Translations under genes and position numbers: made by a program
Shown: piece after piece, positions 12,690-31,141 of the stretch
How positions within the stretch are numbered: the stretch's first letter is position 1
Layout: each line of letters starts with the position of its first letter
DNA from: an uncultured Bacteroidales bacterium
GTDB lineage: Bacteria > Bacteroidota > Bacteroidia > Bacteroidales > UBA932
Direction of reading: 5' to 3'
NCBI GenBank assembly: GCA_900318015.1
Contig: ONJB01000009.1
Coordinates: 23,495-87,494, forward strand
Length of the DNA stretch: 64,000 nt
Notes under the pieces: generated by a model
Databases searched by the model: none
What the model was told of the DNA's origin: nothing
Seen by the model: only the letters and a program-made list of their open reading frames with translations

Positions 12690-12803
12690 TTTAGTAGCGG
12701 AGGCAGGACTCGAACCTACGACCTCCGGGTTATGAGCCCGACGAGCTACCGACTGCTCTACTCCGCGATGTGGAGTGCAAAGGTAGGTAGGGACTTTTTT
12801 TGA
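12690..12803 (-). repeat. Left direct repeat (att block with complete tRNA-fMet)
   Basis: The first 93 bp (12690-12782) are identical to 31032-31124; similarity continues through TAGGGACTTTTTTTG with a 4-bp insertion (TAGG). The block spans TTTAGTAG, the whole tRNA gene and its -7 box. Because both copies contain a complete tRNA, the crossover point cannot be placed more precisely. Confidence 0.85.
12695..12767 (-). tRNA. Initiator tRNA-fMet (CAT), left copy
   Basis: This is a 73-nt tRNA without encoded CCA. The anticodon loop is CTCATAA, giving CAT. The anticodon stem has the three consecutive G:C pairs (GGG/CCC) of initiator tRNAs, and the first acceptor position (C1 opposite U72) is unpaired, another initiator trait. 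The T-loop GGTTCGAGTCC is standard. It is identical to the copy at 31037-31109 and followed by a good terminator. Its promoter is slightly worse (TTTC instead of TTTG at -33), so it may be less expressed. Confidence 0.95.
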
Positions 12804-12808
12804 CGAAA
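12778..12808 (-). promoter_or_regulatory. Promoter of the left tRNA-fMet copy
   Basis: On the minus strand TACCTTTG (12785-12778) fits the -7 consensus, and TTTC lies 19 bp upstream (12808-12805) where the right copy has a perfect TTTG. The -33 half comes from element sequence, so the promoter is a chimera made by integration. Confidence 0.6.
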
Positions 12809-12811
12809 AAG

Positions 12812-12847
12812 TGCGACCAAATATGTGCCAATGAACTACTGGTCGCA
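12812..12847. repeat. Terminal inverted repeat TGCGACCA-N20-TGGTCGCA, left
   Basis: Two 8-bp arms face each other across exactly 20 bp. The same arms with the same 20-bp spacing occur at 30863-30898 near the other end, and both are followed by a similar AT-rich ATAAG-TCAAA tract. A related CGCGACCA lies at 12864-12871. This is probably an integrase or excisionase arm-type site, or an operator. Confidence 0.6.
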
Positions 12848-13240
12848 AATAAGTTCAAAAACCCGCGACCAAGGGTCTTTATTGATCAAACAACCGGACT
12901 AAAAGAGTTGATGCTATTCGCAATTTCTGTTCCTGTGTTTGTCCGTCCACAAAGGTCGTCAATCTCTCCGAAGAATCCAAGATGGCATTGTCGGTTTTTT
13001 CAGGAAGTCGGATTGTAATAGGATTGGGATTATGCAAAGTTTTCGATTCCTCAAAAACCCAAATCACAATACATTCTTCGTTCCTGTGAAAATGCTTCTC
13101 TGTAATAGATACTATGACCGTGAAATAGCCTGAGGATAGCGGTTAGATGTGGCTCTTATACAAAGGTAAGGCTATAGAAGGAAGATACAGGGGCACTTTA
13201 ACCAACTCATTTATAAAAGTCATTATTTATAAAGATTGTT
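12848..13240. other. AT-rich intergenic region at the left end of the element
   Basis: No convincing gene is visible. A 62-codon minus-strand reading frame (12879-13067) has no recognisable domain, no clear promoter and no neighbour in the same direction. Apart from the CGCGACCA motif at 12864 nothing structured was found. Confidence 0.4.
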
Positions 13241-13248
13241 TATCTTTG
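13241..13248 (+). promoter_or_regulatory. -7 promoter box TATCTTTG for the BACON lipoprotein
   Basis: A consensus -7 box lies 75 bp upstream of the ATG at 13324 in an AT-rich context. No clear -33 TTTG was found at the usual spacing. Confidence 0.55.
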
Positions 13249-13323
13249 TATGCTCTTAAATTTTTCAGTTTGGTGATTTCTATACAATTAGAGATAAACA
13301 TATCCTCTTGACTCTTACAGAAT

Positions 13324-15516
13324 ATGAAACGGTTCTTCTTAGCTTTGACTGCCTTGATCGGTTTTTCTGTCGCATTCTATTCTTGCCAAAAGGCTCCTTT
13401 TCTTGTGGTTAACACTCCAGGTAGTATTAACTTCACAGAACAAGGCGGAACTCAGAAGGTTTCATTTACCACAAACAGGGACTGGAATGTTTCATCATCT
13501 GAATCTTGGTGTAAGATTTCCCCTTCATCAGGAGTAGTCCAAGAAGGCGAGTTATCCTTCATTGTTACATGCGATCCTAACACGACGTATGACCCCCGTA
13601 ACGCTACCGTGACAATCAAGGCGGATGAGTTGGTAGAGACCATATCGGTGACGCAGGATACTAATCTTGGTTTGCTTGTAAGTCAGACTTCATTTAGTGT
13701 CTCAAGTCCAGAGCAGGCTCTTGAGGTTGAAGTTAAAGCTAACGTTAACTATGTTGTAGACATCCCTGCAGATTGCAAAGACTGGATATCTCACATAAGT
13801 ACAAAATCCTTGACATCCAGGACACTCGTTCTGAAAATTAGTGAGAATAAAGCTTATGATGATCGTACAGGGCAAGTAACGATTAGGCAGACTGATGGAC
13901 CGCTGGCTGAGACTATTACCATCAATCAGAAACAGGCAGAAGGTTTGTTCATTACTACGCCGGAATACGAACTTTCAAATGAATCACAAACTATAAATGT
14001 AGAAGTTAGGGCTAACGTTCAATATGAAGTTGAATCTCAGGTTGATTGGATTAAACTCATTGAAACAAAAGCCCTATCGTCTTCAACAGTAGTTTTGTCA
14101 ATTGAAGCGAACAACACTTATGATAATCGAACTGGGATAGTGCTTATTAAGCAGGTAAACGGTCTTCTTGAAGGGCGTATTACGATAACGCAAAAACAAA
14201 GGGATGGCTTATTTGTCTCTCCGTCAAGTTTTGAATTAAATGATTTAGAGCAGTGTTTTGAGGTTGAGGTTCAAAGCAATGTCGATTTCCTCGTCAGTAT
14301 TCCCGATGATGCTAAAGGATGGCTTAATCTAGTATCCTCCCCTATAACCAAGGGGTTGTCTTCTAATAAGTTTGTTTTTTCTGTTTCTAAGAATACTTCA
14401 CTTGAAAACAGAGAAGCTCACATAGCATTCAAACAGGTTAACGGACCCCTTTGTGAGGAAGTAATTGTTTATCAATATAAACCACTTGTAGATCTGAGCC
14501 ATAATGGCCATGCAAACTGTTATATTGTTCATTCGCCAGGGTGGTATAGTTTAGATGCGGTACGAGGAAATAGTGACGAACCCATCATCGGTGTTTATTC
14601 TGTAAAAGTGATTTGGGAGACATTTAATACAATCACTAAACCCAGTATAGGCTCTATTATAAAGGAAGTTAAAATAGTTGACAAGAGTGTCGTTTCATTT
14701 TTAATTCCACAAAACTATCATGAGGGTAATGCTTTAATTGCTGTTAGTGATGCATCAGGCAACATTTTGTGGAGCTGGCATATTTGGGTTACTGATTATA
14801 ATCCTGATTCTAATTATTGTAGATATCTCAGTGGTGCTATAATGATGGATAGAGATCTGGGAGCACTTTCAGCTAAGCCAGAGGACTCTTTTCTTACTAA
14901 TGGACTTTTGTATCAATGGGGAAGGAAAGACCCATTCTTGAATTATGCTGGTTGTTCTGGACCAAGAGAATCACATGATTGGTTTAAGGCAAAATCAAGC
15001 ACGGATGTTGAAAATGTAGTTGAAACATCAAGGACTACAGGCACCATTGAGTATGCTATTCAGAACCCTTCAGTTATTATAGTAGGGAAGGGCGCTTCTG
15101 AAATGGATTGGTTGTTTTATGAAAGAGATAACTCTTTATGGCAAAAGAACAAGACAAAATATGATCCTTGCCCTGTTGGATGGAGAGTACCATCCGGCGC
15201 AGAAGAGGATTCTTGGATAGATTCAGGCGCGAATTCAAATAGTGAATGGGCAGGTTTCCCGGAGAAGGTGATTGATCAATGGGATGAAAAAAACATGGGG
15301 ATTCTTTTCGCTCCCCCCTATTCTACTCCGGCGACGTGGTATCACATTAATCAAGGAGCAATAAACACTTACGACATGAACATGTGGACATGCTCTACTG
15401 AAAAGCGTTTTGCAAACTATGTCACATTTGATGAGTGGACCCAAAGATTTACATGGTGGTATTTTAATGGGAATGGTAGATATAATCGATTCTCAATTAG
15501 ATGTACAAAAGAGTAG
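13324..15516 (+). CDS. Surface lipoprotein with about four BACON domains and a C-terminal FISUMP domain
   Basis: This 730-aa protein has a lipoprotein signal (FSVAFYSC, Cys21). Four beta-sandwich BACON-type repeats follow (about residues 25-112, 115-205, 207-296 and 298-385), each ending in a version of the phrase 'DNRTGxVxIxQxxGxLxExIxIxQK'. BACON domains are thought to bind mucin or glycans. Residues about 390-480 are unassigned. The C-terminal 250 residues contain the FISUMP signature (YLSGAIMMDRDLGAL, LYQWGRKDPF, YDPCPVGWRVPS, FSIRCTKE). It is AT-rich like the rest of the element and is followed by a terminator. It is likely a host- or glycan-adhesion cargo gene; its link to Cas9 is only positional. 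Confidence 0.85.
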   Translation: MKRFFLALTALIGFSVAFYSCQKAPFLVVNTPGSINFTEQGGTQKVSFTTNRDWNVSSSESWCKISPSSGVVQEGELSFIVTCDPNTTYDPRNATVTIKADELVETISVTQDTNLGLLVSQTSFSVSSPEQALEVEVKANVNYVVDIPADCKDWISHISTKSLTSRTLVLKISENKAYDDRTGQVTIRQTDGPLAETITINQKQAEGLFITTPEYELSNESQTINVEVRANVQYEVESQVDWIKLIETKALSSSTVVLSIEANNTYDNRTGIVLIKQVNGLLEGRITITQKQRDGLFVSPSSFELNDLEQCFEVEVQSNVDFLVSIPDDAKGWLNLVSSPITKGLSSNKFVFSVSKNTSLENREAHIAFKQVNGPLCEEVIVYQYKPLVDLSHNGHANCYIVHSPGWYSLDAVRGNSDEPIIGVYSVKVIWETFNTITKPSIGSIIKEVKIVDKSVVSFLIPQNYHEGNALIAVSDASGNILWSWHIWVTDYNPDSNYCRYLSGAIMMDRDLGALSAKPEDSFLTNGLLYQWGRKDPFLNYAGCSGPRESHDWFKAKSSTDVENVVETSRTTGTIEYAIQNPSVIIVGKGASEMDWLFYERDNSLWQKNKTKYDPCPVGWRVPSGAEEDSWIDSGANSNSEWAGFPEKVIDQWDEKNMGILFAPPYSTPATWYHINQGAINTYDMNMWTCSTEKRFANYVTFDEWTQRFTWWYFNGNGRYNRFSIRCTKE

Positions 15517-15613
15517 ATTGGCTATTACTCGCTATTAGTAGCTAATTCTTATCTCGTTTAAGCATCTGGCAAGACGCGTTCTTTTATTTCATTATCACCA
15601 TCCATAGTTATAA

Positions 15614-30858: not shown

Positions 30859-30862
30859 AATC

Positions 30863-30898
30863 TGCGACCACTTTATTTGATAAACATAACTGGTCGCA
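30863..30898. repeat. Terminal inverted repeat TGCGACCA-N20-TGGTCGCA, right
   Basis: The arms and 20-bp spacing are the same as at 12812-12847. It lies 5 bp upstream of the integrase start, inside the predicted leader, so besides being an arm-type site it could let the integrase or a repressor control integrase expression. Confidence 0.6.
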
Positions 30899-30980
30899 TA
30901 TAAGGTCAAACATTTTCCGACTTTTTGCCTTGAAAATACCGCGGAAAGAACTCTCGCTATCTGGCTTTTTGAGCGTAAAC

Positions 30981-30988
30981 CAAAGATA
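30981..30988 (-). promoter_or_regulatory. -7 box TATCTTTG of the integrase gene
   Basis: A consensus box on the minus strand lies between the tRNA terminator and the inverted repeat. It would give a leader of about 115 nt. Confidence 0.55.
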
Positions 30989-30998
30989 ATCAACAAAA

Positions 30999-31029
30999 AA
31001 AGAAGAAACCGTTTGATGGTCTCTTCTTT
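30999..31029 (-). terminator. Element-supplied terminator after the right tRNA-fMet copy
   Basis: AAAGAAGAGACC (minus strand, 31029-31018) pairs with GGTTTCTTCTTT (31010-30999) around a 7-nt loop with one G:U pair, and a T-run follows. It replaces the host terminator that stayed with the left copy, and insulates the integrase from tRNA transcription. Confidence 0.75.
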
Positions 31030-31031
31030 CA

Positions 31032-31141
31032 TTTAGTAGCGGAGGCAGGACTCGAACCTACGACCTCCGGGTTATGAGCCCGACGAGCTACCGACTGCTC
31101 TACTCCGCGATGTGGAGTGCAAAGATAGGGACTTTTTTTGA
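31032..31141 (-). repeat. Right direct repeat (att block with complete tRNA-fMet)
   Basis: Identical over 93 bp to 12690-12782 and similar a little further (TAGGGACTTTTTTTGA). The block borders hisS on its right, which is host sequence. Confidence 0.85.
31037..31109 (-). tRNA. Initiator tRNA-fMet (CAT), right copy
   Basis: Identical in all 73 bases to the copy at 12695-12767. It has the better promoter and lies behind hisS, so it is probably the one transcribed from the native host promoter. Confidence 0.95.

Follow-up and report, generated by a model that had tools for sequence, protein, structure and literature searches.

A probable integrative element at a tRNA-fMet gene of an uncultured Bacteroidales bacterium carries Cas9, a tracrRNA and a short CRISPR array without cas1 and cas2

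How does a Cas9 system come to lie between two complete copies of an initiator tRNA gene, and what could it do there when the genes for acquiring new spacers are missing? The question is raised by a 64-kb stretch of the contig ONJB01000009.1, hereafter the window, from an uncultured Bacteroidales bacterium whose genome assembly (G000 in our set) comprises 3.2 Mb and is 92.5% complete. Behind hisS, two direct repeats, each with a whole tRNA-fMet gene, enclose about 18.3 kb of DNA with cas9, a trans-activating CRISPR RNA (tracrRNA), an array of clustered regularly interspaced short palindromic repeats (CRISPR) and, at one edge, a tyrosine-recombinase integrase. We estimate at about 75% the probability that this DNA is an integrative element at tRNA-fMet with a Cas9 system limited to interference by fixed guides, at least one of them directed against a phage.

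Results

Ends of the insert and the native site

The insert is delimited by a 98-bp direct repeat (Table 1), the two copies of which differ at one position (97/98, 99%) and lie 18,342 bp apart from start to start. One tRNA-Met(CAT) gene was called in each, at 12694–12767 and 31036–31109, both on the minus strand; the two 74-bp genes are 100% identical and are the sole full copies in this incomplete assembly, where the next match reaches 74%. An unpaired C1 and a G-C-rich anticodon stem, which we take to be hallmarks of initiator tRNAs, are visible in the tRNA sequence of both repeats. By eye, the homology runs about 12 bp farther upstream, past a 4-bp insertion in the left copy. A preliminary description of the locus had reported identical 93-bp blocks with complete initiator tRNAs: the repeats and their tRNAs are real, and only the length and the perfect identity need correction. 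The AT-rich insert with cas9, tracrRNA, array and edge integrase that it described is as reported, each part having been located and the GC content being 0.468, compared with 0.603 and 0.628 in the flanks.

To see the native state of the site, we compared 29 other hisS loci of the genus, with up to about 1.5 kb of sequence on each side of hisS. One complete tRNA-fMet stands directly behind hisS in 18 of them, no tRNA-Met was called in 10, and in the remaining one the called tRNA lies elsewhere. By BLAST, the tRNA matched 20 of the 29 loci once each, one match being only 65 bp long; a second copy, which the preliminary description had considered for strains lacking the insert, was found in none of the 29. 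The single tRNA-fMet that it expected between hisS and a GNAT gene in relatives is thus seen on the hisS side, yet the far flank differs from that of the window: of the genes that follow the distal tRNA copy in the window, one short GNAT match was the only trace in 20 stretches behind the relatives' hisS, and the strict empty site, hisS-tRNA-GNAT, was not found among them. In three contigs of relatives (L033, L034 and L037; G036:C31, G033:C52 and G001:C5), the sequence starts at the far end of tRNA-fMet or no more than about 175 bases from it; frequent occupation and duplication of the site, which would break assemblies there, should have this effect.

Upstream of the native copies, TTTG and TAnnTTTG boxes are recognizable by eye, about 19–20 bases apart, presumably the promoter pattern of Bacteroidetes. 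The hisS-side copy of the window has both boxes, whereas the distal copy keeps the second and has other sequence in place of the first. For this reason, the element seems to have brought with it a complete tRNA gene and part of its promoter, unlike the element of a related genome, G118 (see below), which brought a 3' part only.

A third copy of the tRNA 3' end with its terminator, 37 bases with 95% identity in a 38-column alignment, lies outside 12690..31141, beyond a pair of genes for an AbiEii-type toxin and a DUF6922 protein, which separates the GNAT gene from the left tRNA. A direct repeat of about 38 bp, composed of the 3' end of tRNA-fMet and its terminator, thereby brackets the stretch with these two genes (11450–12697). 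This stretch may be another small insertion, and the bracketing suggests repeated use of the site. Nearly all DUF6922 matches in the hisS loci were the tRNA read through by an over-long open reading frame (ORF) and were dropped; one, in L075, covers the domain itself.

Integrase and arm-type sites

The integrase frame is open and alignable to relatives over its whole length; the extra stretch of the longest frame overlaps the terminator-like hairpin behind the hisS-side tRNA. Tyrosine integrases of this sort are expected to have paired arm-type sites, and the motif TGCGACC-N22-GGTCGCA has exactly two matches in the 64 kb, one just inside each end of the insert, and none in 100 shuffles; these pairs are probable integrase arm sites. 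The same seven-base pair, with the spacing one base longer, stands ahead of the integrase of G223 (76% identical), and the G118 element has at both ends an inverted pair of like shape and different sequence; in the remaining loci examined, short inverted pairs are present and less clear. An integrase adjoining a tRNA gene, direct tRNA repeats at both ends and, at the level of sequence motifs, arm-type sites inside them are thus all found, as in integrative elements of tRNA sites.

Integrase matches at 1e-30 or better occur in 29 of 200 genus genomes, its own included. In 23 of 25 public loci of integrase relatives, which overlap the genomes of that set and so do not give an independent count, a tRNA gene lies within 900 bp upstream, the nearest being a non-initiator CAT tRNA (11), tRNA-fMet (2), Gly (3), Thr (2), Ser (3) or Gln (2); several of the 25 are partial matches, such as L228 (C-terminal part only) and L232 (17 residues). 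As the loci come from goat, sheep, water buffalo, yak, deer and horse samples, the carriers are a lineage of herbivore-gut Bacteroidales. The 25 loci extend at most 10 kb past the integrase, and less than 8 kb in 14 of them, hardly far enough to show a Cas9 placed as in the window, where cas9 lies about 10–13.5 kb away. No Cas9 match was seen in the five integrase loci with at least 15 kb on the element side (G061, G080, G118, G066 and G108), and the genomes with the closer integrases include none of the 11 others in which this Cas9 occurs.

Cas9, tracrRNA and the deletion behind cas9

Cas9 retains the catalytic residues D13, E599, H682, N705, H848 and D851. Its closest relatives, 62–64% identical, are found in the same genus (G321, G096 and G187), and matches at 1e-100 or better occur in 11 of 400 genus genomes besides its own. 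In nine of these 11 loci, cas1 and cas2 lie directly behind cas9 (in one of them, cas2 is cut by the contig end); of the other two, one is cut before cas1 and the other, G721, has neither gene in the 1.5 kb covered beside cas9. In the window, three bases past the cas9 stop, there remain the last 37 codons of cas2 (19883–19993; 68% identity, E=1.7e-13). The locus has no cas1, and a Cas1 profile search of the same genome gave no match, with nine of 14 control genomes positive. In our view, about 1.1 kb was deleted here, which would have taken away cas1 together with the 5' two thirds of cas2. No csn2 or cas4 product was found among the 11 proteins of the element that were scanned with Pfam, six of which were also compared with PHROGs, small ORFs being outside the scan. 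Compared with a complete type II-C system, the locus therefore has the Cas9 residues, the tracrRNA and the lack of csn2 and cas4, and is without cas1 and cas2.

The tracrRNA is predicted with a fold z of -4.15. The repeat of the window pairs with its own anti-repeat at 18 of 22 positions, 16 of them Watson-Crick, as against 13 with the anti-repeats of relatives. In the terminator helix, two pairs are changed on both sides among five sequences; the number of cells paired, the number of cells changed on both sides and the covariation score were each reached by 8 of 500 shuffles. Covariation and anti-repeat pairing thus lend the tracrRNA support that is modest.

Searches for Cas9 by peptide patterns in genome contigs and IMG/VR, which reach close relatives only, confirmed no relative. 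The protein matched 56 plasmid records and one phage record (26%), all below 30% identity among the matches listed. A separate observation concerns the Cas9 of G721, a full-length protein of 1212 amino acids (L234, G721:C29:1-16000; 5535–9173, minus strand) about 45% identical to that of the window, in which three catalytic positions are altered (RuvC-I D to H, HNH H to Y and RuvC-III D to N). Its neighbours are a repeat array (5046–5510), a tracrRNA-like stretch, an IS605 OrfB/TnpB-type gene, a Rep3 initiator gene and iteron-like repeats, and no cas1 or cas2 match lies within 1.5 kb of cas9; this Cas9 may be naturally nuclease-dead and be carried by a plasmid-like element.

The array and its targets

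Repeats 1–5 are identical, repeats 6 and 7 have one change each, repeat 8 is degenerate and repeat 9 truncated; a degenerate last repeat is also found in the three relatives read, beside complete loci. No match to the relatives was found for the 117 bases that separate the array from the cas2 scar, and we claim no leader there. Spacers 1–7 were searched in IMG/VR with exact 3' parts of 20–21 bases, and one of the seven, spacer 4, found a match, in a gene that neighbours the portal, major head and head-tail adaptor genes of the contig IMGVR_UViG_3300032038_001531. The target is followed by AGGCGCAA. By our own estimate, not one computed by a tool, a chance origin of this exact 30-base match is negligible, and the Cas9 system is probably directed against phages.

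In the portal gene of the same contig (L204, about 6267–6294, minus strand), 19 of 28 bases are shared with spacer 2, with nine mismatches; read in one frame, the spacer gives NAFMAHWN, compared with DRFMAHWQ in the portal protein. This likeness may point to a relative of the spacer-4 phage or be due to chance, and is a lead only.

The array had no match in 72,556 plasmid records, and its matches to phage records, at E 2 or worse, were taken as chance. No convincing self target was found in its own genome, all 11 candidates having been scored and the best match outside the array having E 1.15. Spacer 4, with up to three mismatches, retrieved the array itself only among 400 genus genomes (none in the 399 others). 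For spacers 1–6, with up to six mismatches, nothing but the array was found in 1.48 Mb of loci that include rival elements; spacers 7 and 8 are too short to judge. Array DNA, with two candidates scored per genome, gave a match at E<=1 in 171 of 300 genus genomes; after the weak ones were dropped as chance, clear matches beyond its own genome were those of G321, G096 and G187, all of them CRISPR repeats.

Other genes of the element and a sister element at the same site

Among the remaining genes (Table 1) are two cargo genes for proteins with lipoprotein-like N-termini; the integrase, the helicase and the Sak-type protein match PHROGs, and the ORF with weak helix-turn-helix matches is possibly a replication or regulatory protein. 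Compared with plasmids, the insert matched one record over 1% of its length, apparently through the tRNAs. Judged by the genes recognized among the 11 proteins scanned, it looks like neither an integrative conjugative element nor, as far as its unassigned ORFs allow, a prophage or phage satellite.

Table 1. Features of the window and of the related G118 element (positions in the window, unless another contig stretch is named).
Feature	Position	Strand	Remarks
Third 37-base copy, tRNA 3' end plus terminator	11450..11486	-	beyond the AbiEii/DUF6922 pair
Distal attachment (att) repeat with complete tRNA-fMet	12690..12787	-	element-side upstream region with -7-like box; host-side terminator
Probable integrase arm-site pair, inner left end	12812..12847	.	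TGCGACC-N22-GGTCGCA
BACON-domain protein	13324..15516	+	lipoprotein-like N-terminus; cargo
tracrRNA	16125..16211 (about)	-	anti-repeat, two small hairpins, terminator hairpin; before cas9, on the opposite strand
cas9	16232..19879	+	1215 amino acids; RuvC and HNH catalytic residues kept
cas2 remnant	19883..19996	+	residues 77-113 plus stop; directly behind cas9; deletion scar
CRISPR array	20114..20637 (about)	+	36-nt repeats; spacers 1-6 of 28-30 nt, 7 and 8 short
Spacer 4	20345..20374	+	30/30 match to terminase large-subunit gene of an IMG/VR contig
SSB-family protein	20722..21039	-	
RadC-like JAB protein	21046..21660	-	
UvrD-type helicase	21548..23320	-	PHROG match
DUF3871 protein	23396..24430	-	
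Sak-type single-strand annealing protein	24452..25027	-	PHROG match
InlB-repeat/FG-GAP protein	25216..27741	+	lipoprotein-like N-terminus; cargo
ORF with weak helix-turn-helix matches	28107..28934	+	all matches below curated cut-offs; no PHROG
Tyrosine-recombinase integrase	29704..30858	-	384 amino acids; start set by alignment to relatives; longest frame to 31032
Probable integrase arm-site pair, inner right end	30863..30898	.	TGCGACC-N22-GGTCGCA
hisS-side att repeat with complete tRNA-fMet	31032..31129	-	native upstream region; element-side 3' flank with terminator-like hairpin
hisS	31153..32559	-	host flank adjoining the integration site
G118 tRNA-fMet element, about 16.6 kb	L122 (G118:C7:113001-131891), 1865-18571		HsdR/HsdM/HsdS, second short recombinase, BT4734-like/DnaB-type protein

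In G118, which belongs to another species, hisS, tRNA-fMet and a related integrase (58%) follow each other in the same order as in the window, and a 53-bp repeat of the tRNA 3' part lies about 16.6 kb from the hisS-side copy. The two elements share the site behind hisS, the related integrase, arm-like pairs at both ends and a match to Rad52-type annealing proteins. They differ in that the G118 element encloses the HsdR, HsdM and HsdS genes of a Type I restriction-modification system, has at its distal end the 53-bp fragment instead of a whole tRNA, and carries the BT4734-like/DnaB-type gene, not seen in the element of the window. The copies of the 53-bp repeat are identical in the anticodon region and differ at three positions around the T stem, which would place the crossover upstream of the T arm, unless the T-stem changes arose later. 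The preliminary description had regarded the full tRNA copy as the way in which the element avoids disrupting an essential gene. This idea is not supported: such a copy is not needed, since the G118 element restores the gene with its 53-bp 3' part, and the whole tRNA of the window is an oddity rather than the usual solution.

In another insertion, apparently composite and located at a non-initiator CAT tRNA (L116, G061:C18:9501-29500), a 78-bp stretch at the integrase start recurs after 16 kb with 94% identity; the intervening DNA encodes two methyltransferases and a Type II restriction enzyme. The presence of HsdR, HsdM and HsdS in G118, and of Type II restriction genes near this other relative, supports the view that defence cargo is exchangeable.

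Discussion

In this study, we have described an insert whose features are best accounted for by the following course of events. An element with a tyrosine recombinase of a tRNA-targeting family would have inserted in the seemingly sole native initiator-tRNA gene behind hisS, with a crossover, probably inside the tRNA, that left both ends with a complete tRNA-fMet. As defence cargo, the element would carry a type II-C-derived system cut down to Cas9, tracrRNA and a short array; once expressed, CRISPR RNA and tracrRNA would direct Cas9 to cut matching incoming DNA, that of phages at least. Without cas1 and cas2, the array would be unable to grow on its own, and the element would enter each new host with its targets already fixed. 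Excision, transfer and a benefit to the host would complete this picture; because no transfer genes were recognized, transfer would probably need a helper. The integrative nature of the element and its Cas9 cargo, as proposed in the preliminary description, are supported by the tRNA-linked integrase family, the use of the same site in G118, the putative arm sites at both ends and the foreign GC content. The proposal that the whole interference module is mobile needs qualification: the parts for interference are there, and the deletion of the adaptation genes (no cas1, and 37 codons of cas2) had been overlooked.

Several observations weigh against this interpretation. The GC content within the insert is uneven (about 0.39 to 0.55 in 2-kb windows), and, because the insert is a mosaic in this regard, its parts may have arrived separately. 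Neither a circular form nor its junction nor an empty site of the same species was observed. Among the 11 proteins scanned, no relaxase and no conjugation or type IV secretion gene was found with Pfam, and no phage structural, packaging or helper-interference gene with Pfam or, for six of them, PHROGs; no excisionase was recognized either. As to the Cas9 system, the C-terminus of the protein ends differently from those of relatives at the deletion point, and for this reason its activity is not assured. The repeats of relatives form 16 Watson-Crick pairs with the anti-repeat of the window and 17 with their own, which is nearly equal; in the terminator helix, the number of pairs changed on both sides was reached by 65 of 500 shuffles and the number of pair types by 500 of 500, the covariation being that of five sequences only. 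Finally, six of the seven spacers searched in IMG/VR found no match.

Some of these points would also fit a dead genomic island, integrated once and now fixed, with Cas9 as a decaying remnant after the loss of cas1 and cas2: the adaptation genes are gone, the last repeats are degenerate, the Cas9 C-terminus is altered, and neither excisionase nor transfer genes were recognized. Decay is less in keeping with a Cas9 that is open over 1215 amino acids with its catalytic residues kept, with five identical repeats that fit their own anti-repeat best, and with an integrase frame that is open and alignable from end to end, and the degenerate last repeat is shared with three relatives that have complete loci; we consider this explanation unlikely, at perhaps one chance in four. 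An error of assembly or binning would be a more trivial cause, as repeats around tRNAs often break assemblies and this one is in 106 contigs. The insert, however, lies inside a single 87-kb contig with a genus-like hisS on one side, each repeat is flanked by different unique sequence and an equivalent structure exists in G118, so that an artefact is barely conceivable.

Phage satellites also have such a size, an integrase at the edge, an SSB and a Sak annealing protein, and the element might be one, packaged by a helper and using Cas9 against competing phages. The PHROG matches of Sak, helicase and integrase and the phage gene targeted by spacer 4 would agree with it, but no terminase, capsid or packaging gene is among the 11 proteins scanned, no close cas9 relative was found in IMG/VR by peptide patterns and the phage records gave a single match of 26%; the idea is thus quite improbable. 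Somewhat less so, and still doubtful, is a weapon between mobile genetic elements (MGEs), in line with the competition between elements envisaged in the preliminary description, with Cas9 mainly excluding rival plasmids and elements, as proposed for CampyICE1 (PMC8743540). This precedent and the use of the tRNA-fMet site by other insertions speak for it; the only spacer with a target, on the contrary, matches a phage terminase gene, and neither the plasmid records, nor the loci with rival elements, nor the bacterium's own genome gave the array a convincing target. The integrative element with fixed, at least partly anti-phage guides is therefore the reading that we retain.

More tentatively, and with the odds rather against it than for it, one may envisage that small tRNA-targeting elements of gut Bacteroidales form a family whose members, at tRNA sites common to several species, exchange preassembled defence modules, such as Cas9 without adaptation genes, Type I restriction and perhaps Type II restriction. 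In this scenario, the Cas9 element would bring its host immunity against phages chosen beforehand and, in addition, a spare copy of an essential tRNA gene that has its own upstream region. Whether cargo is exchangeable can be tested thanks to the restriction-bearing sister element, which occupies this very site, and the cas2 scar reveals the ancestral state.

A search of the open-access literature, weak on account of that limit, found nothing on this very element, and the main text of PMC11834463 makes no mention of Cas9. In the case of the complete type II-C loci of the genus (G321, G096 and G187), the Cas9 proteins are 62–64% identical to that of the window, the tracrRNA layout is the same and the repeats also have 36 nt; they differ in having cas1 and cas2 and more repeats, and their 20-kb stretches contain no tRNA gene and no match to the integrase of the window. 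Loss of adaptation is frequent in type IV systems and CRISPR-associated transposons (CAST), according to PMC11656645. These are like our case in that targeting is kept, adaptation lost and the system borne by mobile DNA; they are mostly class 1 or transposon-linked and often without a nuclease (PMC11656645), whereas the Cas9 of the window keeps its catalytic residues.

The closest parallel is CampyICE1 of Campylobacter jejuni/coli, a mobile element whose sole Cas9 is of type II-C; it lacks cas1 and cas2, has few spacers and an integrase adjoining a tRNA-Met gene, has similar elements without cas9 beside it, and a role in MGE exclusion has been proposed for it (PMC8743540). A lone Cas9 without cas1 and cas2 on a mobile element at a tRNA-Met site is hence already known, and the element of the window resembles CampyICE1 in these features, in its few spacers and in the existence of similar elements without cas9. 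As described there, CampyICE1 has 70–129 kb, conjugation genes, three scattered arrays and mainly plasmid spacers (PMC8743540), whereas the element of the window has 18 kb, no recognized conjugation genes, one array by cas9, one phage spacer and a cas2 scar. The two belong to different phyla and are likened here by their described features. All together, the present case adds another phylum in which, apparently independently of CampyICE1, Cas9 has been kept and spacer acquisition lost at a tRNA-Met site. It further adds a compact element in which no conjugation genes were recognized, the deletion can still be read from its scar, a spacer has a phage target and the repeat contains a complete initiator tRNA. 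This hints at a recurrent route, in which a fixed list of targets may suffice for an element.

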